Of a DNA stretch of 64,000 bases, positions 4,366 through 18,481 are shown in pieces. How positions within the stretch are numbered: the stretch's first letter is position 1; the number at the start of each line of letters is the position of its first letter. Both the position numbers and the translations under genes were made by a program. Source of the stretch: Streptomyces sp. NRRL F-5727 (lineage in GTDB: Bacteria; Actinomycetota; Actinomycetes; Streptomycetales; Streptomycetaceae); contig NZ_JOGX01000010.1 of NCBI RefSeq assembly GCF_000719555.1, forward strand, positions 105,553-169,552, read 5' to 3'. Below the pieces are notes generated by a model. The model saw only the letters and a list, made by a program, of their open reading frames with translations, ran no database searches and was not told the DNA's origin.

Positions 4366-5418
4366 ATGAAGCTGGCGGAACCGGTCGGTATTTCGGCCGC
4401 CGCGCTGTGGCTTCCGCGCGGACGGGACCAGGTCGAGGACGCGGTCGTGGAGGGCCGGCTGACCCGGCGCCACGCACAGGACCTCGGCCACACGGCCGTC
4501 CCCGCGGCCCTCGACGAGTCGGCCCCCGACATGGCCGTCTCCGCCGCGTCCGACGTCCTGGACGCGGCCGGGATCGAGCCCAAGGAACTCGACCTGACCT
4601 TCCACGCGAGCATGTACTACCAGGGCCACGACCTGTGGTCGCCCGCCCACTACGTCGCCCACCGCATCGGGGCCGAACGCGCCCTGCCCATCGGCATCCA
4701 GCAGGTGTGCAACGGCGGCAGCAGCGCCGTCCAGCTCGCCTCGGCCTATCTCACCGCCGCCCGGACCACCGGCTCGCCGCGGTCCCGCCGCGCCCTCGTC
4801 ACCACCGCCGACCGCTTCGTCGCCCCCGGCTTCGACCGCTGGGCCAGCGACTACGGCGTGGCGTACGGGGACGGCGGCACGGCCCTCGTGCTCACCGCGC
4901 CCGCCGCCGACGAGGACCCGCTGCTGCTCCTCTCGGTGGCCAGCACCGCCGCGCCCGAACTGGAGGAGATGCACCGCGGCGCCGACCCCTTCGCGCCGGT
5001 CCCGCGCGGCGTCCGCGACCGCGTCGACATGCGCGTCACCAAACGCGCCTACCTGCGGGAGCACGGCAACGAGGGCTTCGTCGCCGCCAATCTGCGCGGC
5101 ATCCGCACGGTCGTCGGCGAAGCCCTCGTCGACGCCGGCATGCACCCGTACGACCTGCGGCTGCGCTACGCGGTCCTGCCCCGCTTCGGCCGCAAGACCC
5201 TGCGCGACTCCTGGCGGGCCGTGCTCGCCGAACACACCTCCGCGGAACCGCTGGAGTACGGCCTGGCCACCGGGCACCTCGGCGCCGGCGACGCCGTCGC
5301 CGGCATCGCCGACCTGATGCGCGAGCGGGCGCTCGCGCCGGGGGAGGCGGCGCTGGTCTTCAGCGCGGGCGCCGGCTTCACCTGGTCCTGCCTGGTCGTC
5401 CAGGCGCCGGACCGCTGA
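4366..5418 (+). CDS. KAS III-like acyltransferase (FabH/DpsC/CerJ type)
   Basis: This 350-residue thiolase-fold protein has a nucleophile Cys in QQVCNGGSSA (about residue 115). At the site of the usual His motif it reads LPRFGR, and at the Asn motif it reads TGHLGAGD. The Cys-His-Asn triad of a standard KAS III is therefore changed, as also happens in the acyl-transferring relatives DpsC and CerJ. It may load a starter or transfer a chain rather than do ordinary condensation. GGAG just before the ATG supports the start. It begins the rightward arm and is followed by the ketoreductase. Confidence 0.8.
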   Translation: MKLAEPVGISAAALWLPRGRDQVEDAVVEGRLTRRHAQDLGHTAVPAALDESAPDMAVSAASDVLDAAGIEPKELDLTFHASMYYQGHDLWSPAHYVAHRIGAERALPIGIQQVCNGGSSAVQLASAYLTAARTTGSPRSRRALVTTADRFVAPGFDRWASDYGVAYGDGGTALVLTAPAADEDPLLLLSVASTAAPELEEMHRGADPFAPVPRGVRDRVDMRVTKRAYLREHGNEGFVAANLRGIRTVVGEALVDAGMHPYDLRLRYAVLPRFGRKTLRDSWRAVLAEHTSAEPLEYGLATGHLGAGDAVAGIADLMRERALAPGEAALVFSAGAGFTWSCLVVQAPDR

Positions 5419-5489
5419 ACCGCCACCCCCGCCTCATCCCACCTCACCTCACCGCACCGCACGTACCAGGAAAGGACGGCCGGACAGCC

Positions 5490-6194
5490 GTGTCACGATC
5501 AGTGTTCATCACCGGAGCCAACCGGGGCATCGGACTCGCGGTGGCCCGCATGATGGCCGCCGACGGCGACCGGGTGGCCGTCGGCCACCGCGGCGGCGAC
5601 GTCCCCGAGGGCTTCCTCGGGGTGCGCTGCGAGGTCACCGACCAGAGCTCCGTCGACGAGGCGTTCGAGACGGTCGCCCGCGAGCAGGGCCCCGTCGAGG
5701 TGCTCGTCGCCAACGCCGGCATCACCCGTGACACGCTGCTGCTGCGCATGGACGACGACACCTTCGACGAGGTGCTCGACACGAACCTGCGGGGCGTGTT
5801 CCGTACGGTGCGGGCGGCGGCCTCGGTGATGCTGGCCGAGCGGCGCGGCCGGATCGTGCTCCTCTCCTCCGCGCTCGGCTTCCTCGGCTCGCCCGGCCAG
5901 ACCAACTACGCGGCCACCAAGACCGCCCTGCTCGGCTTCGCCCGCTCGCTGGCCTGGGAGCTCGGCCCCCGGGGCATCACGGTCAACCTGGTGGCGCCCG
6001 GCATCATCGAGACGGACATGACGAAGGACCTCAGCGACCGGCGCATGCGGGACACCATGCGGATGACCCCGGTCGGCCGCCCCGGCACCGACCGCGAGGT
6101 CGCCGCCGCCGTCCGCTTCCTCGCCTCCGAGGACGCCGGCTACATCACCGGGGCGGTGCTCCCGGTGGGCGGCGGCATCGGCATGGGCATCTGA
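5490..6194 (+). CDS. 3-oxoacyl-ACP reductase, FabG-like SDR
   Basis: This 234-residue short-chain dehydrogenase has the NADPH motif TGANRGIG (residues about 8-15), NAG in VANAGI, the catalytic Ser in LLSSALGF and YAATK with the catalytic Tyr and Lys. It should reduce a 3-keto group on an ACP-bound chain or on a butyrolactone intermediate. GTG at 5490 gives the standard N-terminus; AGGAAAGGA lies upstream. It follows the KAS III-like gene by 71 bases and ends this arm of the cluster. Confidence 0.88.
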   Translation: MSRSVFITGANRGIGLAVARMMAADGDRVAVGHRGGDVPEGFLGVRCEVTDQSSVDEAFETVAREQGPVEVLVANAGITRDTLLLRMDDDTFDEVLDTNLRGVFRTVRAAASVMLAERRGRIVLLSSALGFLGSPGQTNYAATKTALLGFARSLAWELGPRGITVNLVAPGIIETDMTKDLSDRRMRDTMRMTPVGRPGTDREVAAAVRFLASEDAGYITGAVLPVGGGIGMGI

Positions 6195-6217
6195 CCCGAC
6201 TGTCCTCCGCACCCCCC

Positions 6218-10388: not shown

Positions 10389-10718
10389 ATGAAGCGATCC
10401 TCAGTACGTCTGGCTCTCGCCTTCGCCGCGGTGCTCGGCCTGACGGGCCTCGGCGGCGTGGGCACGGCCGCGGCCGACCCGGCGGCGGCCGACACGGTGG
10501 CGGTCGGCACGGCGGCCGTCACGACCGAGTACTTCACCGGCTTCGGCACCGGCTCGACCGCGTGGACGGCCGAGTCCTCCGCCTACAACGACGCTTACGT
10601 GAAGGCGTCGTTCGCCGGCTACGCCCGCTACACGTGCTTCCCGTCCGGCATCCCGTACACGCGGCAGATCAGCCAGTACATGTACTGGTCGAACGCCACG
10701 GTCCGCTGCACGAAGTGA
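10389..10718 (+). CDS. small secreted protein of unknown function
   Basis: This 109-residue protein has a clear Sec signal peptide: MKRSS, a hydrophobic stretch of about 18 residues, and a cleavage region near GTAAADP. The mature part has many Tyr, Thr and Ser residues and two Cys (YTCFPSG and VRCTK) that could form one disulfide. AGGGAG sits 11 bases before the ATG. I do not recognise the family. A hairpin terminator follows, so it is monocistronic. Confidence 0.75.
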   Translation: MKRSSVRLALAFAAVLGLTGLGGVGTAAADPAAADTVAVGTAAVTTEYFTGFGTGSTAWTAESSAYNDAYVKASFAGYARYTCFPSGIPYTRQISQYMYWSNATVRCTK

Positions 10719-10765
10719 ACCCGGAGCCCCTGAGCTCCTGAACCTCCGCGGCATCAGCCGGGTGC

Positions 10766-10805
10766 GGCCGGCCCCGTCCCCGACTCGTCAGGGACGGGTC
10801 CGGCC
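10766..10805 (+). terminator. hairpin terminator after the small secreted protein gene
   Basis: Two 15-base arms (10766-10780 and 10791-10805) pair with one mismatch around a 10-base loop. Confidence 0.6.
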
Positions 10806-10830
10806 CCCACCGGACCGGGTCCCGGCGATG

Positions 10831-10950
10831 CTCCGGGCCGCGTCGCGGGCGGGGCGGCCGACGCCGATGAGGGTGGCGGAGGCGGGGCGGAAGCCGGTGC
10901 ACCAGATGATCGCGTCGGCCTCGGCCGTGGTGCCGGCGGGCCATTCCACT
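10831..10950 (-). pseudogene. arsO remnant with an internal deletion
   Basis: On the minus strand this 120-base stretch encodes VEWPAGTTAEADAIIWCTG followed by FRPASATLIGVGRPARDAA. These are two separated pieces of the C-terminal part of the intact arsO at 16243-17316. About 39 codons between them (from LSLLAP to DWTGP) are missing in frame. The junction falls at GGCGGGGC, an 8-base sequence present at both ends of the deleted segment in the intact gene, so deletion by short-repeat recombination is likely. No start or upstream part of the gene remains. Confidence 0.85.
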
Positions 10951-11150
10951 TGTAGTGGTCCGCGATGCCATGACCCTCGTCGGTGAGGCCGACGGCTGGG
11001 TCAGGGCCCGGAGCACTTCTTCGGTCGGCTTCGTCAGCTCTCCCTCACGGCGTGCGCGGGCGGTTCACCATCGGCCGGACCGTACGGAGGGGGAGGGCGG
11101 CGCGCGCACGTGCGCAGGGGCGCGTGAGCTGCACCGTGGTCCGTGCGACC

Positions 11151-11181
11151 GGCAGGACGGTGCCAGGGGTGGTTCATGCCA
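11151..11181 (+). promoter_or_regulatory. shared 31-nt element, copy 1
   Basis: The element reads GGCA-N6-TGCC-N12-TGCCA with GTTCATGCCA at its 3' end. It lies 104 bases before the GTG of the HTTM-operon. The other copies are at 12900-12930, 28966-28996 (minus) and 32441-32471 (minus). Confidence 0.6.
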
Positions 11182-11284
11182 GCGGGTGCGGGTTCCGCGC
11201 GGGCGGGTGGGTGTCGAGACTCGACGGTGACCGCAGTGTGCGCCGGCATGGGCGGCGTACGCGTCCCGTCGAAAGAGAGCGCAC

Positions 11285-11896
11285 GTGTCCCCAGTACCCC
11301 GGGCCAAGCTGCTGAGTCGGGCGATCCTCACGGGGACGTCCGTCTATCTCGCCGGCCAGGTGGTGCACACGGTCCTGAACACCAACCGGTGGCCGTTCTG
11401 CACCTTCAACATGTTCGCGTACCACAAGCGTGACCAGGCGCTGCAGATGCGCGTCCGGCTCTTCACGGACGACGGCGAGGCCGTCGGGCCCACCGATCCG
11501 TGGTCGCTGCTGCCGCTGGAGTTCTTCCGGGTGGTGTCCGTCCTGGAACGGGTCTTCCACGCGCAGGACGACGTGGAGGTCCGGGACCGGTTCTGCCGAC
11601 AGGCACTGGAGCGGTTGAACCGGCGCGGGTGGCGGGCCTGGGACGAGGTGAAGGCGTCGTTCTCGGCGGGGGCCGGGCGGCGGTTCGTCGCGATGGAGCT
11701 GTACTTCGTCGAGGTCGACTTCCGGACCTGCTCGCCCTTCGACCGCACGGAGGTGACGTCGGCCGAGCTCGTGCACCGGTACGACCCCGAAGGCGTCGTG
11801 GCCGATCAGCCGGAGGCGCCCCTGTGGCGGTTCGTCGAACCCCTCGTCGAAGAGACCGAGGAAGGGAAGAAGGAGGAGGCGGGGCATGCTGCCTGA
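11285..11896 (+). CDS. small membrane-anchored protein paired with an HTTM protein
   Basis: This 203-residue protein starts at GTG 11285 and has one N-terminal membrane segment (about residues 11-31, AILTGTSVYLAGQVVHTVL). It is followed by WPFCTFNMFAYHKRD and a charged C-terminal tail rich in Glu and Lys. The tail-coding end overlaps the next gene by 11 bases, so the two are coupled. Small membrane proteins paired with HTTM proteins occur in SdpAB-type systems that mature the SdpC toxin. The similarity here is in organisation and in the tryptophan motif, not proven homology. I do not assign a reaction. Confidence 0.7.
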   Translation: MSPVPRAKLLSRAILTGTSVYLAGQVVHTVLNTNRWPFCTFNMFAYHKRDQALQMRVRLFTDDGEAVGPTDPWSLLPLEFFRVVSVLERVFHAQDDVEVRDRFCRQALERLNRRGWRAWDEVKASFSAGAGRRFVAMELYFVEVDFRTCSPFDRTEVTSAELVHRYDPEGVVADQPEAPLWRFVEPLVEETEEGKKEEAGHAA

Positions 11897-12761
11897 GATC
11901 ACCGGGGCGCGTCAGCGCCTCGCACTGGCCCGGCTCACCACCGGCCTGGCGATCCTGAACACCCTCTGGCACCTCCCGCCCGGCGACGCCCTCGTCGACG
12001 AGTGGAGCCGTAAGGAGGAGGGCCAGGACGGCCGGCCCTCCGGGCGGCTGAGCGCCGAGCAGTACGAGGCCCTGCGACGGCTCGCGTTCGTGTCGACGGC
12101 CGCCTGGACGCTCGGTGCCGAGAGCAAGGCCCTCAAGTTCGCGGCCAATGCCTCGTTCGCCGCCGTGCAGCGGCATGTCGCGCAGTTCGACCAGCGGGCC
12201 TGGAACTACAACTCCAACCTCAACGTCTACCTGCTTCTGCTCTCCCTGACCGACTCGCGCGGCAGTCTCGCCGAAGCCGTCGGCGAGGGAGCGGACGACG
12301 GCACGGGCGACGGCGCGGACGGCGGGGGACCGTCGCCCGACGTCGCCACCGCCGTGCTGCTCGCCATGCGGCTGTACTACGGCTGCCTCTACTTCCAGTC
12401 GGGGCTCTCCAAGGTGCTGCTGAGCGGGCCCGCCTGGGCCGACGGCCGTACCCTGCGCGGCAGCTGGGCCGAGCTGGGCAACCGTGCGGGCAAGTGGCTC
12501 AGCAGGCGGCCGATGACCGTGGCGGCCGCCGCCAGTGCCGCCACGCTCGCCTTCGAACTCCTCTTCCCCGCCGCACAGATCGCGCTGCGCAAGCACCCCC
12601 GTGCCGTGGGGCTGTCCTCCGTCGCCTTCCACGCCTCCATCAAGGCGACGATGGGCATCTCCTTCTGGCATCACGCCGTCCACGCCCTGCCGCTGTTCGT
12701 CCTCGACCCGGGTGCCGAACGGCACACGGCACGCCTCCTGCGTCCCTTCCGGAAGCGCTGA
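11886..12761 (+). CDS. HTTM-domain (SdpB/gamma-carboxylase-like) membrane protein
   Basis: This 291-residue polytopic protein has about five hydrophobic segments. The HTTM-like signature is RLYYGCLYFQSGLSKV (about residues 160-175), followed by PAWADGRTLRGSW. HTTM is the membrane domain of vitamin K-dependent gamma-carboxylase and also occurs in SdpB, needed for SDP toxin maturation. It overlaps the preceding small membrane protein gene. The next gene downstream, after a terminator, is the microcin C-like peptide, so a role in producing or tolerating that peptide is possible but not shown. Confidence 0.7.
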   Translation: MLPEITGARQRLALARLTTGLAILNTLWHLPPGDALVDEWSRKEEGQDGRPSGRLSAEQYEALRRLAFVSTAAWTLGAESKALKFAANASFAAVQRHVAQFDQRAWNYNSNLNVYLLLLSLTDSRGSLAEAVGEGADDGTGDGADGGGPSPDVATAVLLAMRLYYGCLYFQSGLSKVLLSGPAWADGRTLRGSWAELGNRAGKWLSRRPMTVAAAASAATLAFELLFPAAQIALRKHPRAVGLSSVAFHASIKATMGISFWHHAVHALPLFVLDPGAERHTARLLRPFRKR

Positions 12762-12773
12762 ACGGAGACCTCG

Positions 12774-12803
12774 ACAGAGCGCTGACAGAGCGTTCACAGA
12801 GCG
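12774..12803. repeat. three ACAGAGC heptamers at 11-base spacing
   Basis: ACAGAGCG occurs at 12774, 12785 and 12796, that is heptamers separated by 4 bases. This spacing is typical of OmpR/SARP-type activator sites. They lie between the HTTM stop and its terminator, an odd place for a promoter element, so chance or a site for the downstream operon are both possible. Confidence 0.4.
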
Positions 12804-12824
12804 CCTTACCCGCCCTCCGCCGGC

Positions 12825-12860
12825 CCCCCCGAGCCTTCCGCTCGGGGGGCTTTCGCGTTT
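12825..12860 (+). terminator. intrinsic terminator of the HTTM operon
   Basis: A 10-bp stem (12825-12834 with 12840-12849) around the loop CTTCC is followed by CTTTCGCGTTT. It separates the HTTM pair from the peptide operon. Confidence 0.8.
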
Positions 12861-12899
12861 CCAGGACGGCTTTTCCAGTGTTATCCGATTTCACCTCCG

Positions 12900-12930
12900 G
12901 GCAGCTTCCTGCCGGGTGCAATTGCTGCCA
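12900..12930 (+). promoter_or_regulatory. shared 31-nt element, copy 4 (microcin C-like operon)
   Basis: This copy keeps GGCA at positions 1-4, TGCC at 11-14 and TGCCA at 27-31, with TT at 23-24. It lies 116 bases before the peptide ATG. It is the most divergent copy (TTGCTGCCA instead of TTCATGCCA) but has the same spacing and orientation relative to its gene. A small hairpin, CCGGGA/TCCCGG at 13000-13016, lies between it and the ribosome-binding site. Confidence 0.5.
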
Positions 12931-13045
12931 ACCGGAGGGGCTTCCGCGAGCTCCGGCCACAGGACATCATTAACTCGTCGCCAACAAACGGAGGCGACAC
13001 CGGGAGGAAATCCCGGGAAACCTCGAAATCACTCAGGGAGTCATC

Positions 13046-13105
13046 ATGCTGAAGATCATCAAGGTTGTCGCCGCCCGCGCCGTCTCCGGCCGCGCCTTCA
13101 ACTAG
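13046..13105 (+). CDS. microcin C-like precursor peptide (MccA-like, 19 residues, C-terminal Asn)
   Basis: The ORF encodes MLKIIKVVAARAVSGRAFN and then TAG TAG. AGGGAG lies 5 bases before the ATG, an excellent Shine-Dalgarno site. MccB enzymes adenylate and nucleotidylate the C-terminal Asn of MccA-type peptides, and this peptide ends in Asn. An MFS exporter and an MccB/ThiF-like enzyme follow directly. The peptide strongly resembles the 19-residue MccA of Bacillus amyloliquefaciens as I recall it (MLKI.KV...RA..G...N). It would be carried into target cells and processed to a toxic aminoacyl-nucleotide analogue. It is far shorter than standard gene-prediction cut-offs, so it would usually be missed. 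Confidence 0.85.
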   Translation: MLKIIKVVAARAVSGRAFN

Positions 13106-13117
13106 TAGTCGTCGCCT

Positions 13118-13152
13118 CGCGGGCCGGGAGCGACCCCGGTTCCCGGCCCGCG
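13118..13152 (+). terminator. 12-bp hairpin between peptide gene and export/modification genes
   Basis: The arms CGCGGGCCGGGA (13118-13129) and TCCCGGCCCGCG (13141-13152) pair perfectly around an 11-base loop, 12 bases after the peptide stop. No U-tract follows. In the E. coli microcin C operon a partial terminator between mccA and mccB makes a short, abundant peptide mRNA; the same role is inferred here. Confidence 0.7.
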
Positions 13153-13245
13153 GCAGCGGCGGCTCCCCGCAGTGCCCCTGCTTCATCCAGCTTTCCCCCA
13201 GCTTCCCTCCCCAGGTTCAGAGTTCGTCCGGAGGCGGAACGGCCC

Positions 13246-14562
13246 ATGGTGCATACGGAAAAGAAGAACGCGGAACCGTCCGATGTGAAATCCATCTGGC
13301 GTGACTCCAGATTCCGCCGCCATTTCGCCGGAATGTGGGTCAACGCCTTCGGGAACGGCGTCTTCAACATCGTCCTTCCCCTCCTCGTCTTCGACCGGAC
13401 CCATTCCTTCGCCGCGATGGGCGGCGTGGCCCTCGCCACCCAGCTGCCCAAGGCGTTTCCCGGACCCCTCGTCGGCGTGCTCGCCGACCGCCGGTCGCCC
13501 CGCGCGATGATGCTGTGGGCCTATCTCCTCCAGGCCGTCCTCGTCCTGACGATCCCGCTCGCCGCCGGCGCGTCCGTCGCCGCCGTCTGGCTGATCGGCC
13601 TCATCGCGTACGCGATGAACACCATCGACCTGTTCGCCCGCACGGCCACCTTCGTCACCATCCCCCGCGTGTACGGAGACCGCCGCAGCAAGGTGAACGC
13701 GGCCTTCGCCAGCGCCTGGACGTCCGCCTCGGTACTCGGCCCCGCCGCCGGCGGGTTCCTGCTGCAGGTCACCTCGGCGGACGTGCTGATGCTGCTCGAC
13801 AGCCTCACGTTCCTGGCCATCGCCGCCGTCGTCCTCACCATCGGTGTCCCGACCACGCCGGGGAACGCCTCCACCGCCCCGATCCGGAAGAGCCTCCTCG
13901 AAGGCCTCACCTGGTTCCGCAGGGCCGAGGGCGCCGGGCGGTTCATGAGCTCGATCGCCGCCGTGGCCGTCGTGTACGCGCCCCTCGGCACGCTGGCCGT
14001 CTTCGCCGTACGGGACGTGTACGGCGACGGGCCCACCGAGGCAGGCATCGTGACGAGCGCCGCGGGCGCCGGCCTCTTCCTCGGCACCCTGATCTGCCAG
14101 CGCCTCGCCGACCGGCCCAAGGAACCCGTGATGCGGCGGGCCGCCCTGTGGATGGCCTTCGGCGCGGCCCTCTTCGCCGTCCCCTCCTGGATCGGTGCCA
14201 CGGCGGCGATGCTCGTCGTGAACCTCTGCGGCATGGTCTACGCGGTCTCCCGCTCCAACCTCATCCAGGAGCGCGTCCCGACGGAGCACCTGGGCCAGAC
14301 GATGACCGCCGTGCAGTCCCTGGAATCCGCCGTCCAGCCGGTCTCCGTCGCCGTGGTGAGCGCCGTGCTCGCCCTGGCCGGACCGCCCGGAGCGGCTGTC
14401 TTCCTCACCGTCTTCTCGGTCGTCGCGGCCCTGCTCGTCCTCGGTGGCGGCCGGCTGCTGGCGCCCCGTACCGAGACCGCCGCCCCCGCTCCGACCACCT
14501 CCCGCTCCCCGTCCACCCTGAACGCGACCGCCTCCGCGGCGGCCCACGGAGGCACCCGATGA
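13246..14562 (+). CDS. MFS exporter (MccC-like)
   Basis: This 438-residue protein has about 12 membrane segments and the MFS loop motif GVLADRRSPRAMM after segment two. It begins WRDSRFRRHFAGMWVNAFGN. I chose ATG 13246, with GGAGG 11 bases upstream. It lies between the peptide gene and the MccB-like gene and overlaps the latter (ATGA). In microcin C clusters the MFS protein MccC exports the peptide-nucleotide and protects the producer, so that is the likely role. Some similarity to macrolide-efflux MFS proteins is expected. Confidence 0.85.
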   Translation: MVHTEKKNAEPSDVKSIWRDSRFRRHFAGMWVNAFGNGVFNIVLPLLVFDRTHSFAAMGGVALATQLPKAFPGPLVGVLADRRSPRAMMLWAYLLQAVLVLTIPLAAGASVAAVWLIGLIAYAMNTIDLFARTATFVTIPRVYGDRRSKVNAAFASAWTSASVLGPAAGGFLLQVTSADVLMLLDSLTFLAIAAVVLTIGVPTTPGNASTAPIRKSLLEGLTWFRRAEGAGRFMSSIAAVAVVYAPLGTLAVFAVRDVYGDGPTEAGIVTSAAGAGLFLGTLICQRLADRPKEPVMRRAALWMAFGAALFAVPSWIGATAAMLVVNLCGMVYAVSRSNLIQERVPTEHLGQTMTAVQSLESAVQPVSVAVVSAVLALAGPPGAAVFLTVFSVVAALLVLGGGRLLAPRTETAAPAPTTSRSPSTLNATASAAAHGGTR

Positions 14563-15641
14563 CTTCGATCAACCTGCGGCAGGGACTCTCCGTCCTGCAG
14601 CCGGGCAAGGACCTCATGATCGGCCTCATGCCGCCCGCGGCGCTGGCCATCGAGGACGCCCCCGACTACCTGCGGCACGTCCTGTCCGCCTTCTCCCGGC
14701 CCGTCCCCGAGGCGGAGGCGCTCGCCACCGTGACCGCCCACTCCGACCTGGGCGTCGAGGAGGCCGGGCAGCTGCTCCACGAGCTCCGCTGCGCCGGCGT
14801 GCTCACCACGCACTGGGTCGACCGGGAGGAGCGCTACAGCCGCCACCGCCTCTACTTCGGCGTCGCGGGCTTCGAGGGCGACCCGATGGCCGTCATCCGG
14901 AACAGCACCGTCGGCCTCATCGGCGCGGGTGGCATCGGCAGCAACGTGGCGATGATGCTGGCCGCGGCGGGCGTCGGCCGGCTGGTGGTCGCCGACGCGG
15001 ACGTCGTGGAGACCACGAACCTCACCCGCCAGTTCCTCTACACCGAGGGCGACGTCGGCACCCCGAAGGTCGAGGCGCTGGCCCGCCGCGTCGCCGAACG
15101 CAACACCGAGGTCCGCGTCGACGTCGTCAACGACGTCTTCGACGGCCCCGACTTCGCCGTCCGGCACTTCGCCGACTGCGACCTCGTCATCCTCTCCGCC
15201 GACACCCCGCAGGACGTCCACCGCTGGCTGAACGAGGCGTCGGTCCGCACCGGCGTCCCCTACACCTGCGCCGGCTACCTCGACACGATGGGCATCGTCG
15301 GCCCGCTCGTCGTGCCCGGCCGCACCGCCTGCCTGGAGTGCCACTTCGCCGACACCGGCCTGGCCTCGTTCAACGGCGGCGACCTGGAGGCCACCGACTT
15401 CACCGACTACAACCAGGCCTACCAGGCCCCGAGCTACGGCCCCCTCAACGCCATGGTCTCGGCCGCCGCCGTCAACGACACCCTGCGCTTCCTCCTCGGC
15501 CTGCCGGCCAGGTCCCTGGGCACCAAGCTGCTCCTCGACTCCATCGAGTACGGCGTCCAGACGGAGGAGTACGAGCGGAACACCGCCTGCGGCTCGTGCG
15601 GCACGGGCGCGCGCGAGGGGGCCTTGAGCGGCGTGGCCTAG
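14559..15641 (+). CDS. MccB/ThiF-like (E1-type) peptide-adenylating enzyme
   Basis: This 360-residue protein matches MccB in length (about 350). Residues about 20-95 form a winged-helix-like region, where MccB has its peptide clamp. The nucleotide-binding loop is GAGGIGSN (122-129), followed by the D..D..NL.RQ segment (VADADVVETTNLTRQFLY) with the Arg finger. Two Cys pairs, C258-x2-C261 and C344-x2-C347, bind zinc as in E1/ThiF/MoeB enzymes. It has no neighbouring thiamin, MoCo or sulfur-carrier gene, but it sits behind a 19-residue peptide ending in Asn. It should form an N-P linked peptide-nucleotide by activating that Asn. Whether it uses ATP or CTP cannot be read from sequence by eye. Confidence 0.87.
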   Translation: MTSINLRQGLSVLQPGKDLMIGLMPPAALAIEDAPDYLRHVLSAFSRPVPEAEALATVTAHSDLGVEEAGQLLHELRCAGVLTTHWVDREERYSRHRLYFGVAGFEGDPMAVIRNSTVGLIGAGGIGSNVAMMLAAAGVGRLVVADADVVETTNLTRQFLYTEGDVGTPKVEALARRVAERNTEVRVDVVNDVFDGPDFAVRHFADCDLVILSADTPQDVHRWLNEASVRTGVPYTCAGYLDTMGIVGPLVVPGRTACLECHFADTGLASFNGGDLEATDFTDYNQAYQAPSYGPLNAMVSAAAVNDTLRFLLGLPARSLGTKLLLDSIEYGVQTEEYERNTACGSCGTGAREGALSGVA

Positions 15642-15645
15642 CGCT

Positions 15646-15685
15646 CTGAGGGCCCGTGGCCGCCGACGGGGCCACGGGCCCTCAG
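15646..15685. terminator. bidirectional hairpin between the MccB-like and GNAT genes
   Basis: Two 16-base arms (15646-15661 and 15670-15685) are perfectly complementary around an 8-base loop. They lie between convergent genes and overlap the end of the GNAT gene by 4 bases. Confidence 0.8.
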
Positions 15686-16191
15686 CCGCGCAGCGGAAGC
15701 GCCATCTCCAGTTCGCGCTGGCTCTGGTTCAGCGGGTACGGCTTCTTTTGGCCGGTCGGCACGAAGCCGCGACGCCGGTAGAAGGCGATGGCCCGGCGGT
15801 TCTCCTCGTGGACGAGAAGGACGAGGCGCTCGGCCGCCGTCTCCTCGCGTGCCCAGCGCACGATCTCGTCCAGCATGAGCGTCGCCACGCCACCGACCGG
15901 GCCTCGGTGGTCCGGACGCAGCCAGACGCCGACCAGCTTGGCCGTGTCCGGCGCGGGCAGGAATCCGTTCATGACCCCGACCCATTCCCCTTCGGAGCCG
16001 ACGGCCGCGACACCGATGTTGCCGGGGCTCGCGGCCCGCGTCGTGCGGAACTGCCACTCGGAGTCGGGGTGGGCGAGCGCCTCGTCGATCGTCTCCAGGT
16101 AGGCGAGCGGGGTGTCCCGGATCATCTCCAGGCGTATCGCCCGGTACGCCGGCCAGTCCTCCGCCTGTACGCGGTGCAGGGTGTAGTCCAT
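15682..16191 (-). CDS. GNAT acetyltransferase, candidate MccE-like immunity enzyme
   Basis: This 169-residue GNAT has the acetyl-CoA region WLRPDHRGPVGGVATLMLDEI and the C-terminal NRRAIAFYRRRGFVPTG. In E. coli the GNAT domain of MccE acetylates the processed toxic aminoacyl-nucleotide and protects the producer. Here the gene is convergent with, and touching, the MccB-like gene. Self-immunity is therefore a good hypothesis, but GNATs of this type are common and have many substrates. No MccF peptidase is nearby. Confidence 0.75.
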   Translation of the reverse strand: MDYTLHRVQAEDWPAYRAIRLEMIRDTPLAYLETIDEALAHPDSEWQFRTTRAASPGNIGVAAVGSEGEWVGVMNGFLPAPDTAKLVGVWLRPDHRGPVGGVATLMLDEIVRWAREETAAERLVLLVHEENRRAIAFYRRRGFVPTGQKKPYPLNQSQRELEMALPLRG

Positions 16192-16242
16192 GGCGGGCGA
16201 TCTTCGCAGGAAGCCGCAGCTCTGGCCAGGCTTGTTCTCTGT

Positions 16243-17316
16243 TCAGCGCAGGAGTTCGGCGATCGCGCGGGCGGCGTCGCGGGCGGGGCGGCCGACACCG
16301 ATGAGGGTGGCGGAGGCGGGGCCGGTCCAGTCGCCGTAGCCGAGCAGGTGGAGGCGGGGTTCGCCGAGCGCCTGGGTGCCGGTGGTGGGGATGTGGCCGC
16401 GGGGGCCGCGCAGTCCGAGCGGGGCGAGGAGGGACAGGGCGGGGCGGAAGCCGGTGCACCAGATGATCGCGTCGGCGTCCGCCGTCGTGCCGTCGGGCCA
16501 TTCCACGCCGGTCGCGGTGAGGCGGGTGAACATGGGCTGGGGTTTGAGGAGGCCGGCGTCGCGGGCCGCGCGGACCGGGGGGACGGCGACGATGTCGCCG
16601 AGGGAGGCGACGCCGCCGGTGTCGGTGCGGCCTTCGTCGAGGGCCTTGCGGCGGGCGGTGGCGTGGTCGAAGAGGGCGCGGCCGTCGATGTCGTCGGCGA
16701 GGTAGACCGGTTCGCGGAGGGTGACCCAGGTCAGGTCGGCGTCGTACGCGAGGTCGGCGGCGATCTGGGCGCCGGAGTTGCCGCCGCCGACCACGATCAC
16801 GCGCTGTCCGGCGAAGTCGGAGGGGCGCTGGTACTCCACGGTGTGGAGCTGGGTGCCCCGGAACTCCGTGCGGCCGGGGACGGCCGGGACGAAGGGGCGG
16901 GACCAGGTGCCCGTCGCGCTGACGACCGCCCGGGCCCGCCACGTACCGGAGTCGGTCGCGACGCGGAGGCGTGCGCCGTCGCGGTGGACGCCCGAGACGC
17001 GGACGGGGCGGTGGACCGGGAGGTCGTAGCGCCGCTCGTAGTCGGCGAGGTACGTGACGACGTGGGCGGCGTCGGGGTACGTCTCGCCCGGCTGCGGGGG
17101 CATCATGCGGCCGGGGAGGGACGAGTACGCGGCGGGGGAGAAGAGATGGAGGGAGTCCCAGGTGTGCCGCCAGGCGCCGCCGGGGGCCGTACCGGCGTCC
17201 AGGATCACGAAGTCCAGGCCGGCCCGGCGCAGGTGGTAGCCGGCGGCGAGGCCCGCCTGGCCTCCGCCGATGACGACCACGTCGATGCCGACTTCGGCGG
17301 TCTGGTGCTGGGCCAT
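16243..17316 (-). CDS. arsO: ArsO-like flavin-dependent monooxygenase
   Basis: This 357-residue flavoprotein has an FAD motif VIGGGQAGLAAGYHL near the N-terminus and an NADPH motif VVGGGNSGAQIA (about residues 165-176). ATG-type features fit class B flavin monooxygenases. It lies 79 bases downstream of acr3 on the same strand. The order arsR-acr3-arsO with divergent arsC-arsT is that described for the Streptomyces linear plasmid pHZ227, where arsO and arsT were first named. The exact reaction is not settled; oxidation of an arsenic species is likely. A broken partial copy lies at 10831-10950. Confidence 0.85.
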   Translation of the reverse strand: MAQHQTAEVGIDVVVIGGGQAGLAAGYHLRRAGLDFVILDAGTAPGGAWRHTWDSLHLFSPAAYSSLPGRMMPPQPGETYPDAAHVVTYLADYERRYDLPVHRPVRVSGVHRDGARLRVATDSGTWRARAVVSATGTWSRPFVPAVPGRTEFRGTQLHTVEYQRPSDFAGQRVIVVGGGNSGAQIAADLAYDADLTWVTLREPVYLADDIDGRALFDHATARRKALDEGRTDTGGVASLGDIVAVPPVRAARDAGLLKPQPMFTRLTATGVEWPDGTTADADAIIWCTGFRPALSLLAPLGLRGPRGHIPTTGTQALGEPRLHLLGYGDWTGPASATLIGVGRPARDAARAIAELLR

Positions 17317-17395
17317 GCCCGGGATTCCCTTCTCGACGACGGTGCCCCGGCCCGCACGGCGGGGCGGGGCACCTGGGGGTGACGCGTGACGACGC

Positions 17396-18481
17396 CTACC
17401 GCTGAGCCGGGGCGAACTTCCTGCGCCAGGCCAGCGACACGTAGACGAGCGCGACCAGGACCGGGACCTCGATCAGCGGGCCGACGACGCCGGAGAGGGC
17501 CTGGCCGGAGGTGACGCCGAAGGTGGCGATCGCGACGGCGATGGCCAGCTCGAAGTTGTTGCCGGCCGCCGTGAAGGCGAGCGTGGCCGTCCGGTCGTAG
17601 TGCAGGCCGATCGCCTTGCCGAGCAGGAAGGTGCCGAACCACATGACGGCGAAGTAGACGAGCAGCGGGAGCGCGATCCGCGCCACGTCCAGCGGCTGCG
17701 AGGTGATCGTCTTCCCCTGCAGGGCGAAGAGGATCACGATGGTGAAGAGGAGGCCGTAGAGGGCCCACGGGCCGATCTTCGGCAGGAACTTCGCCTCGTA
17801 CGACTCCCGGCCCAGCTTCCTCTCGCCGATGCGGCGGGTGAGGAACCCGGCGACGAGCGGGACGCCGAGGAAGATGACGACGTTCAGCGCGATCTTCCAC
17901 ATCGAGATGTCCAGCGTCTCGCCCTCGCCCAGGCCGAGCCATCCGGGGAGGATGTCGAGGTAGAACCAGCCCAGCAGGCCGAAGGCCAGGACCTGGAAGA
18001 CCGAGTTCAGGGCGACCAGGACGGCTGCGGCCTCGCGGTCGCCGCAGGCCAGGTCGTTCCAGATGATCACCATGGCGATGCATCGGGCCAGGCCGACGAT
18101 GATCAGGCCGGTGCGGTACTCGGGCAGGTCCGGCAGGAAGATCCAGGCGAGCGCGAACATGAGCGCCGGGCCGAGGATCCAGTTGATGACGAGCGACGAG
18201 ACCATGAGCTTCTTGTCGCCGGTGACGGCGTCGAGCCTGTCGTAGCGGACCTTGGCCAGGACCGGGTACATCATGATCAGCAGGCCGACGGCGATGGGGA
18301 GCGAGATGCCGCCGATCTCGACCTTCGCGAGCGCGTCGTCCATGCCGGGGATCAGGCGCCCGAGTCCGAGGCCGAGGCCCATGGCGAGGAGGATCCAGAC
18401 GGCGAGGAAGCGGTCGAGCGTCGACAGCTTCGCGACCACCGACTTCTCGGGGCTCGTGGTCGTGGGGGCGGCGGGGGTCAC
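17396..18481 (-). CDS. acr3: Acr3 arsenite efflux permease
   Basis: This 361-residue protein has ten hydrophobic segments and the Acr3 hallmarks GLARCIAMVIIWNDLACGD (with the essential Cys in the fourth segment) and FTAAGNNFELAIAVAIATFG. It exports As(III) across the membrane using the proton gradient. The GTG start overlaps the arsR stop (GTGA). It is a BASS-fold transporter and typical in length. Confidence 0.93.
   Translation of the reverse strand: MTPAAPTTTSPEKSVVAKLSTLDRFLAVWILLAMGLGLGLGRLIPGMDDALAKVEIGGISLPIAVGLLIMMYPVLAKVRYDRLDAVTGDKKLMVSSLVINWILGPALMFALAWIFLPDLPEYRTGLIIVGLARCIAMVIIWNDLACGDREAAAVLVALNSVFQVLAFGLLGWFYLDILPGWLGLGEGETLDISMWKIALNVVIFLGVPLVAGFLTRRIGERKLGRESYEAKFLPKIGPWALYGLLFTIVILFALQGKTITSQPLDVARIALPLLVYFAVMWFGTFLLGKAIGLHYDRTATLAFTAAGNNFELAIAVAIATFGVTSGQALSGVVGPLIEVPVLVALVYVSLAWRRKFAPAQR

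Follow-up and report, generated by a model that had tools for sequence, protein, structure and literature searches.

A probable microcin C-like cluster of reduced actinobacterial form in Streptomyces sp. NRRL F-5727

The window analysed here is a whole 64,000-nt stretch of DNA from Streptomyces sp. NRRL F-5727 (genome G000), in which a short peptide gene, a major facilitator superfamily (MFS) gene and the gene of a ThiF-type enzyme stand in a row. An initial annotation had read positions 12900..15641 as a microcin C-like (mcc) locus, in which a short peptide would receive a nucleotide on its C-terminal Asn. The core genes do lie within these limits, but the unit conserved among relatives is larger (11285-16191). 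Its central features are:

13035..13040, plus strand: ribosome-binding site AGGGAG, 5 nt upstream of ATG
13046..13105, plus strand: mccA-like precursor gene, 19 codons, MLKIIKVVAARAVSGRAFN, C-terminal Asn, then TAG TAG
13110..13161, plus strand: GC-rich hairpin between mccA and the exporter gene, inner stem 13117-13131/13139-13153
13246..14562, plus strand: mccC-like MFS exporter, 438 aa, Pfam MFS_1 7e-31; H+ antiporter family TIGR00900 below cut-off
14559..15641, plus strand: mccB-like ThiF nucleotidyltransferase, 360 aa, single domain, Pfam ThiF 4e-47

The 19-codon gene with its strong ribosome-binding site and terminal Asn is present as first described, and it is conserved beside orthologous ThiF genes. 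Five distinct loci could be aligned: the window and those of Streptomyces sp. R302 (L010), NRRL B-3735 (L011), S. roseicoloratus (L012) and S. phyllanthi (L013). Asn is the last peptide residue in all five, and AGGGAG or AGGAG lies upstream of each peptide gene. Two relatives encode a peptide identical to that of the window and two others encode MLKIIKVVTAKAVSGRAFN and MLKIVKVVVAKAVSGRAFN, which differ by 2 or 3 conservative replacements; synonymous changes are present across the five loci and indels are absent. The tandem stop remarked on earlier holds for the window only, since the four relatives have TAG-CAG or TAA. A short adjacent precursor gene with a strong Shine-Dalgarno sequence and a C-terminal Asn, as found here, is given as a mark of mcc clusters in PMC6495379 (section 6).

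The pattern MLKI-x-KV-x3-RA-x2-G-x3-N, which the initial annotation gives for the B. amyloliquefaciens MccA, agrees with the published sequence. PMC6594144 shows MLKIRKVKIVRAQNGHYT for the peptide part, which the modified Asn then completes; 10/19 residues are identical to the window peptide. By comparison, the maximum among 114,048 simulated start sites (40 simulated windows) was 7/19, as was the second-best score in the window itself (2,905 start sites with 19 open codons). Residues 2-18 alone contribute 8 identities, a number equalled by 6 of 200,000 shuffles of those residues. The match to the published MccA is thus far beyond chance, and on the simulated start sites and shuffles a chance reading frame is rejected.

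The ThiF/E1 features noted earlier in the enzyme are also there: every row of a 14-row alignment, E. coli MccB among them, keeps the GxGGxG loop (residues 122-127) and two Cys pairs (258/261 and 344/347). The top matches among solved structures in the PDB were three E. coli MccB sequences (3e-41 to 6e-41), followed by ubiquitin E1 (6.5e-18) and MoeB (2.3e-17). When the search was repeated with a 13-row family profile, MccB (2e-53, 185 bits) was followed by PaaA as the next distinct protein (3e-29, 105 bits) and then by E1-type enzymes, ThiF and MoeB. In profile-profile comparison the family scored 373 against a 4-row MccB alignment over residues 35-350, versus 262 against a 9-row MoeB/ThiF alignment that began only at residue 88. 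A database search with the enzyme gave at least 268 matches at 1e-20; named relatives among the best 120, which were listed, include the B. amyloliquefaciens and Mycobacteroides abscessus (P0033) enzymes, Bacillus entries (P0019, P0024), Streptacidiphilus and several Streptomyces proteins.

The phylogeny comprised 54 selected rows: 37 of the best 40 database matches (without the fragments P0010, P0021 and P0026), six rows that are loci or reference proteins, and 11 of the 12 MoeB/ThiF-like matches selected (the short P0044 was omitted). A split at 100/100 set the MccB-like rows apart from 10 of the 11 MoeB/ThiF-like ones. The window enzyme falls in an 11-row group (100/100) within a 16-row group (98/94) in which all proteins are single-domain and the named members are actinobacterial; two-domain enzymes surround it. 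By PDB search, database search, tree and profile scores the enzyme thus belongs with the ThiF-type nucleotidyltransferases of the MccB group. Two other origins were discarded: PADLOC E1-E2 models for anti-phage systems matched over the ThiF domain only (the three genes flanking the core gave no PADLOC match), and 50,697 phage records held no match at 1e-20.

The hairpin reported after the peptide gene exists, but with a 15-bp inner stem and a 6-bp outer stem rather than the 12 bp claimed. A strong hairpin occupies the same place in 5/5 loci; in S. phyllanthi a double change replaces one G-C pair by A-T. A terminator has been described at this place in E. coli mcc (PMC6495379); because no T-run follows the window's hairpin, the same role is only proposed here, and the structure would probably limit read-through into the enzyme genes. 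An Rfam search of 10500-17500 gave no match, and a sigma-70/terminator scan of 12700-13300 returned no promoter and one minus-strand terminator-like site. The MFS gene follows the hairpin, as first noted, and overlaps the ThiF gene by ATGA; it would represent the dedicated exporter expected of an mcc cluster, with export itself predicted.

Three further genes accompany the mcc core in all five loci, two upstream and one downstream:

11285..11896, plus strand: hyp1, 203 aa, no Pfam or NCBIfam family at E<=0.001
11886..12761, plus strand: hyp2, 291 aa, weak LMF1/DoxX matches
15682..16191, minus strand: GNAT acetyltransferase, 169 aa, convergent, Pfam Acetyltransf_1 4.5e-14, candidate self-immunity gene

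Gene order is preserved throughout, though GNAT lies 2.5 kb from mccB in S. roseicoloratus, where about 2.5 kb is inserted. In S. phyllanthi, similarity to the window is bounded at 11277-16210 and covers exactly hyp1, hyp2, mccA, mccC, mccB and GNAT; the genes on its right flank resemble genes found at 24.4-30.1 kb in the window, and the two loci may therefore occupy the same chromosomal region with rearrangement. Relatives of hyp2 and mccB also occurred twice more on equal-sized contigs, once at 53099 bases, where both carry the name Streptomyces sp. NPDC006739, and once at 45420 bases. Beside the unit, an arsO-like monooxygenase relic in two pieces lies to its left (10823-10949). They match 16257-16322 (91% identity) and 16438-16506 (94%) of the intact arsO, which follows GNAT on the right. 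The NRRL B-3735 record (JOFO01000027.1) is titled Microtetraspora glauca, a name that is probably wrong, Streptomyces being indicated.

MccB-type matches at E<=1e-45 were found in 3/392 Streptomyces genomes (G000 and G076, single-domain; G193, two-domain), with five more matching only at 1e-30 to 1e-34 (31-36% identity); the phylum-wide sample yielded 1/396, the window's own genome, and the family-wide sample 3/297 at 1e-50 (G000, G1016 and G835). Scanning genome contigs turned up seven loci, four of the window's type and three (L014-L016, Pseudomonas-like) that are not, matching at 38% over 113 residues. The latter contigs carry at 6154-6207, downstream of the ThiF-type match, a 17-codon frame ending in Asn (MNLNEMLPVPQMQYLFN) with GAGG upstream and one N-to-D change in L016.

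Among the two-domain relatives, Streptomyces G193 has mccB near both chromosome ends; one copy (L017) comprises an S51 peptidase, a 613-aa ThiF-methyltransferase, the peptide MSIVLKIRRIIRIKGNQRSWMN, a decarboxylase and a methyltransferase, resembling the published Nocardia cluster (PMC9239234). G835 (L028), probably Streptacidiphilus pinicola, encodes MLKIVKKPVVKTDSIMVHN, apparently twice, and a 636-aa frame; the two MccA-like copies (5395-5708) surround a run of N, reflecting an assembly gap or tandem precursors. Using the G193 transferase domain (E<=1e-15) and the G193 MccS-like protein (E<=1e-10) as queries, we found relatives in 2/2 two-domain carriers (G193, G835), and in 0/3 single-domain carriers (G000, G076, G1016) and not in the control G013. 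The 360-aa enzyme has a ThiF domain only, without the carboxymethyltransferase domain of the carboxymethyl-cytidine subclass of microcin C, and for the MccS of that subclass (carboxy-S-adenosylmethionine, or cxSAM, synthase) the G193 MccS-like query gave no match at E<=1e-10 in the three single-domain carriers. Carboxymethylation is therefore very unlikely here, and the product is probably a plain peptidyl-nucleotide lacking the carboxymethyl group.

With the enzyme grouping with MccB and the peptide conserved beside it, we agree with the initial annotation and hold with high confidence that this is a microcin C-like cluster of a ribosomally synthesized and post-translationally modified peptide (RiPP), of the long-precursor kind and in a reduced actinobacterial form. 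Judging from its genes, the product of the locus is very probably a 'Trojan horse' antibiotic like microcin C, a nucleotide-capped 19-residue peptide. The microcin C chemistry described in PMC12250964 and PMC9239234 uses two nucleoside triphosphates (NTPs) per conjugate, a succinimide intermediate and an N-P bond at the C-terminal Asn, and the same sources describe export, peptide-mediated entry, trimming and a block of aspartyl-tRNA synthetase (AspRS). From gene content, homology, conservation and the lack of detectable decoration genes, we infer a corresponding course here for each chemical step, export, uptake, target and immunity. The 19-residue MccA would be translated in excess and bound by the predicted N-terminal clamp of MccB, which would activate the C-terminal Asn with an NTP and close it to a succinimide. 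A second NTP would then be attacked by the imide nitrogen, creating the N-P bond and linking an isoaspartyl-type residue to the nucleotide. The conjugate, exported by the MFS pump, would be imported by sensitive cells as a peptide and trimmed, freeing a non-hydrolysable aspartyl-nucleotide that would block AspRS. The base may be cytosine if specificity follows the nearest tested relatives and adenine otherwise; cytosine is our first guess because the nearest tested enzymes (B. amyloliquefaciens and Nocardia vaccinii) are cytidylating. As a counter-case, Hyalangium minutum ThiF enzymes with long precursors are described as adding adenosine monophosphate (AMP; PMC7157772).

Several observations weigh against this interpretation. 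In the tree, one MoeB/ThiF-like protein on a very long branch (P0087) fell on the MccB side, and E. coli MccB itself sits on a long branch with an unsure place. The N-terminal clamp is weakly aligned by sequence, the best HMMER stretch to MccB beginning at residue 90, and the N-terminal part aligns to PaaA from residue 12 or 13 and to the MccB profile from residue 35. The MFS protein has no BLASTP similarity to E. coli MccC, the MccS-like query was named by position and fold only, and among the six proteins scanned Pfam showed no MccF-, MccG- or MccH-type family. As to immunity, GNAT is rejected as an MccE homologue (BLASTP E 2.4 to E. coli MccE), and so is a spare AspRS as the protective factor, there being no second full AspRS in G000, G076 or G1016.

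Since several reactions are known for ThiF-like RiPP enzymes (PMC12150305) and PaaA follows MccB as the second distinct protein of the profile search, the enzyme might instead be one of the RRE-ThiF (RiPP recognition element) type that performs on the conserved peptide a chemistry other than nucleotide addition, such as thiolactone, indolylamide or PaaA-like. We consider this very unlikely: the closest enzymes with a tested function transfer nucleotides, the peptide matches a nucleotide-capped precursor in its MLKI type and its invariant C-terminal Asn, and PaaA scores 105 bits against 185 for MccB. It is very unlikely that the cluster is a decayed or decoration-loss relic no longer making an active compound. 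Such a relic would suit the absence of detectable relatives of the decoration genes that two-domain clusters carry, but all five mccB copies are free of internal stops (the C-terminal end differs in that of R302), the peptide changes are conservative, and PMC9239234 speaks of a known minimal mcc operon with three genes. The chance that a cellular sulfur-carrier enzyme (MoeB/ThiF) merely lies beside a fortuitous short frame is close to negligible. ThiF is the best NCBIfam match, yet at 110.6 bits against a cut-off of 275.25, and the enzyme is below cut-off for every family among the best 25 of 26; the clustering with MoeB/ThiF that would have spoken for such a role was not seen in the tree, and profile scores and peptide conservation argue against it as well. 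A housekeeping enzyme of this type is rejected on cut-offs, tree and profile comparison.

Compared with known systems, the microcin C-like cluster in the window resembles that of B. amyloliquefaciens, which has the same precursor length (MccA 19 aa, MLKIRKVKIVRAQNGHYTN) and sequence pattern and an enzyme 42% identical over 91% of the window enzyme. The B. amyloliquefaciens MccB is bifunctional, with a C-terminal carboxymethyltransferase domain that works with MccS (PMC12250964), whereas the window enzyme lacks this domain. The N. vaccinii and M. abscessus clusters are likewise actinobacterial with long precursors (N. vaccinii 21 aa; the M. abscessus protein is 41% identical to the window enzyme), but PMC9239234 describes them with MccS, MccG, aminopropyl genes and an MccB of two domains, none of which Pfam showed in the window unit. 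E. coli microcin C7 (mccABCDEF) shares the ThiF enzyme (MccB, 32% identical over 72% of the window enzyme), the MFS pump, the hairpin after mccA and the C-terminal Asn; it differs in its heptapeptide and in the methyltransferase, GNAT and S66 genes that follow. H. minutum mcc, likened here by its published description, also combines long precursors (36 and 46 aa) with a ThiF-type MccB that adds AMP in vitro, and differs in its ATP-binding cassette (ABC)-type exporter, two precursors and HIT-type immunity (PMC7157772).

The new antibiotic family proposed by the initial annotation is accordingly too strong a claim: PMC9239234 reports a partial in vitro reconstitution of an actinobacterial mcc cluster (N. 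vaccinii) and describes M. abscessus clusters, long-precursor MccB enzymes form a published clade (PMC6495379), and Streptomyces G193 holds a fuller cluster. What is new is a single-domain, undecorated mcc variant with extra conserved partners. Among the open-literature papers listed we found no description of a Streptomyces mcc or of the link to agrocin discussed below; Table S1 of PMC6495379 may already list relatives of the window enzyme.

The partner genes may bear on self-protection. GNAT (E<=1e-40) occurred in 2/81 Streptomyces genomes, the same two that carry single-domain mcc; as both are close relatives, this co-occurrence alone is weak. We regard GNAT as the likeliest self-immunity factor. 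For hyp1 and hyp2, NCBIfam offered no family even at E 10. Weak matches suggest that hyp2 is probably a membrane protein of the HTTM/DoxX type, including an HTTM match (0.0016) of a Bradyrhizobium relative. A link of the pair to SdpA/SdpB of B. subtilis was our own assumption, and the literature search gave it no support.

Relatives of hyp1 (E<=1e-30) were found in 5/121 Streptomyces genomes (G000, G018, G066, G076, G111) and of hyp2 (E<=1e-40) in 4/199 (G000, G076, G111, G155). Two of these six genomes carry mcc; the other four (L029, L030, L031 and L040) hold both genes by tblastn, and in 4/4 a synthetase derived from asparaginyl-tRNA synthetase (AsnRS) lies within about 2.5 kb. The L031 synthetase is 45% identical over 99% to annotated agnA of pAgK84, which PMC4392301 describes as a truncated AsnRS homologue turned biosynthetic enzyme in the agrocin 84 cluster. 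According to the same source, agrocin 84 is a phosphoramidate nucleotide and agnB2 a leucyl-tRNA synthetase (LeuRS) giving self-immunity. The gene agnC5 is annotated as MccF-like. Unlike mcc products, agrocin 84 is made by a synthetase-derived enzyme, and G000 has no AgnA-like match at E<=1e-60, which sets the window apart from agrocin 84-like clusters. Because AgnA-like genes occur in only 12/199 Streptomyces genomes at that threshold, the 4/4 pairing is far from expectation, with the qualification that the four clusters share several related genes and are not fully independent. Besides the synthetase they contain an S66 peptidase (MccF family) in 3/4, a transferase of one family in 3/4 and decarboxylases in 2/4; the L040 transferase matches E. 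coli MccD at 25% identity (8e-24), and the L029 decarboxylase resembles that of the G193 mcc cluster (26%, 5e-15), its match to E. coli MccE being not significant (E 0.039).

Spare aminoacyl-tRNA synthetases are a classic sign of synthetase-directed antibiotics. G155 has a second full alanyl-tRNA synthetase (AlaRS), G066 a second phenylalanyl-tRNA synthetase (PheRS) alpha-subunit gene, PheS, and G018 a second PheS about 23 kb away. The G155 cluster (L040, 1631-10478) brings together the second AlaRS, a 375-aa protein with a weak AlaRS-core match, the MccD-like transferase, hyp1-hyp2 and the AgnA-like gene, a candidate for an AlaRS-directed antibiotic. The G066 cluster (L031, 1762-12598), a PheRS-directed candidate, combines the second PheS (38% to the other copy) with the AgnA-like gene, an S66 peptidase, hyp1-hyp2, an MFS gene and an ATP-grasp ligase.

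Among 72,556 plasmid records, hyp2 matched a single one, from S. changanensis, where an AgnA-like gene lies some 2 kb away, and hyp1 also a single one (Bradyrhizobium japonicum p1S06B). On the latter plasmid (L047, 10196-14538), hyp1- and hyp2-like genes lie beside a 348-aa ThiF gene, an Asn-ended 101-aa frame and a GNAT gene without similarity to that of the window; in the PDB this ThiF matched E1 enzymes and MccB about equally (1e-16). The locus is possibly a distant mcc-like cluster in an alphaproteobacterium.

The presence of the pair near AgnA-like genes in four other genomes suggests a shared module. We consider it evenly balanced whether hyp1-hyp2 is an unnamed module common to two unrelated routes to aminoacyl-phosphoramidate nucleotide antibiotics: a ribosomal one through MccA/MccB (the window and perhaps the Bradyrhizobium plasmid) and a non-ribosomal, agrocin-like one through AgnA, with MccF-family peptidases, MccD-like transferases and spare AlaRS or PheRS. 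On this idea the pair would handle the shared N-P aminoacyl-nucleotide warhead, by immunity, export or modification. Against it, the two-domain mcc stretches L017 and L028 have no hyp pair, 8/12 AgnA genomes have no hyp match at the thresholds used, and an AgnA cluster on a Streptomyces plasmid (L046) is without hyp genes at 1e-5. That plasmid cluster (NZ_CP109191.1, 262810-278887, Streptomyces sp. NBC_01707) encodes an AgnA-like ligase, a methyltransferase, FAD and molybdopterin hydroxylase subunits, a protein with a His/Gly/Thr/Pro-type tRNA ligase domain and an LD-carboxypeptidase; it would suit phosmidosine, a Streptomyces phosphoramidate nucleotide (PMC6429109).

The window thus offers a compact Streptomyces cluster for testing the base choice of a single-domain, long-precursor MccB and the activity of an undecorated conjugate, and it delimits a single-domain MccB group, actinobacterial where named, of which we found no description in the literature searched. 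By way of hyp1-hyp2 it connects the ribosomal clusters of microcin C with those of agrocin-like type, and it draws attention to Streptomyces clusters that carry spare aminoacyl-tRNA synthetases; if the module is real, it would point to further, undescribed synthetase-directed antibiotics in Streptomyces.

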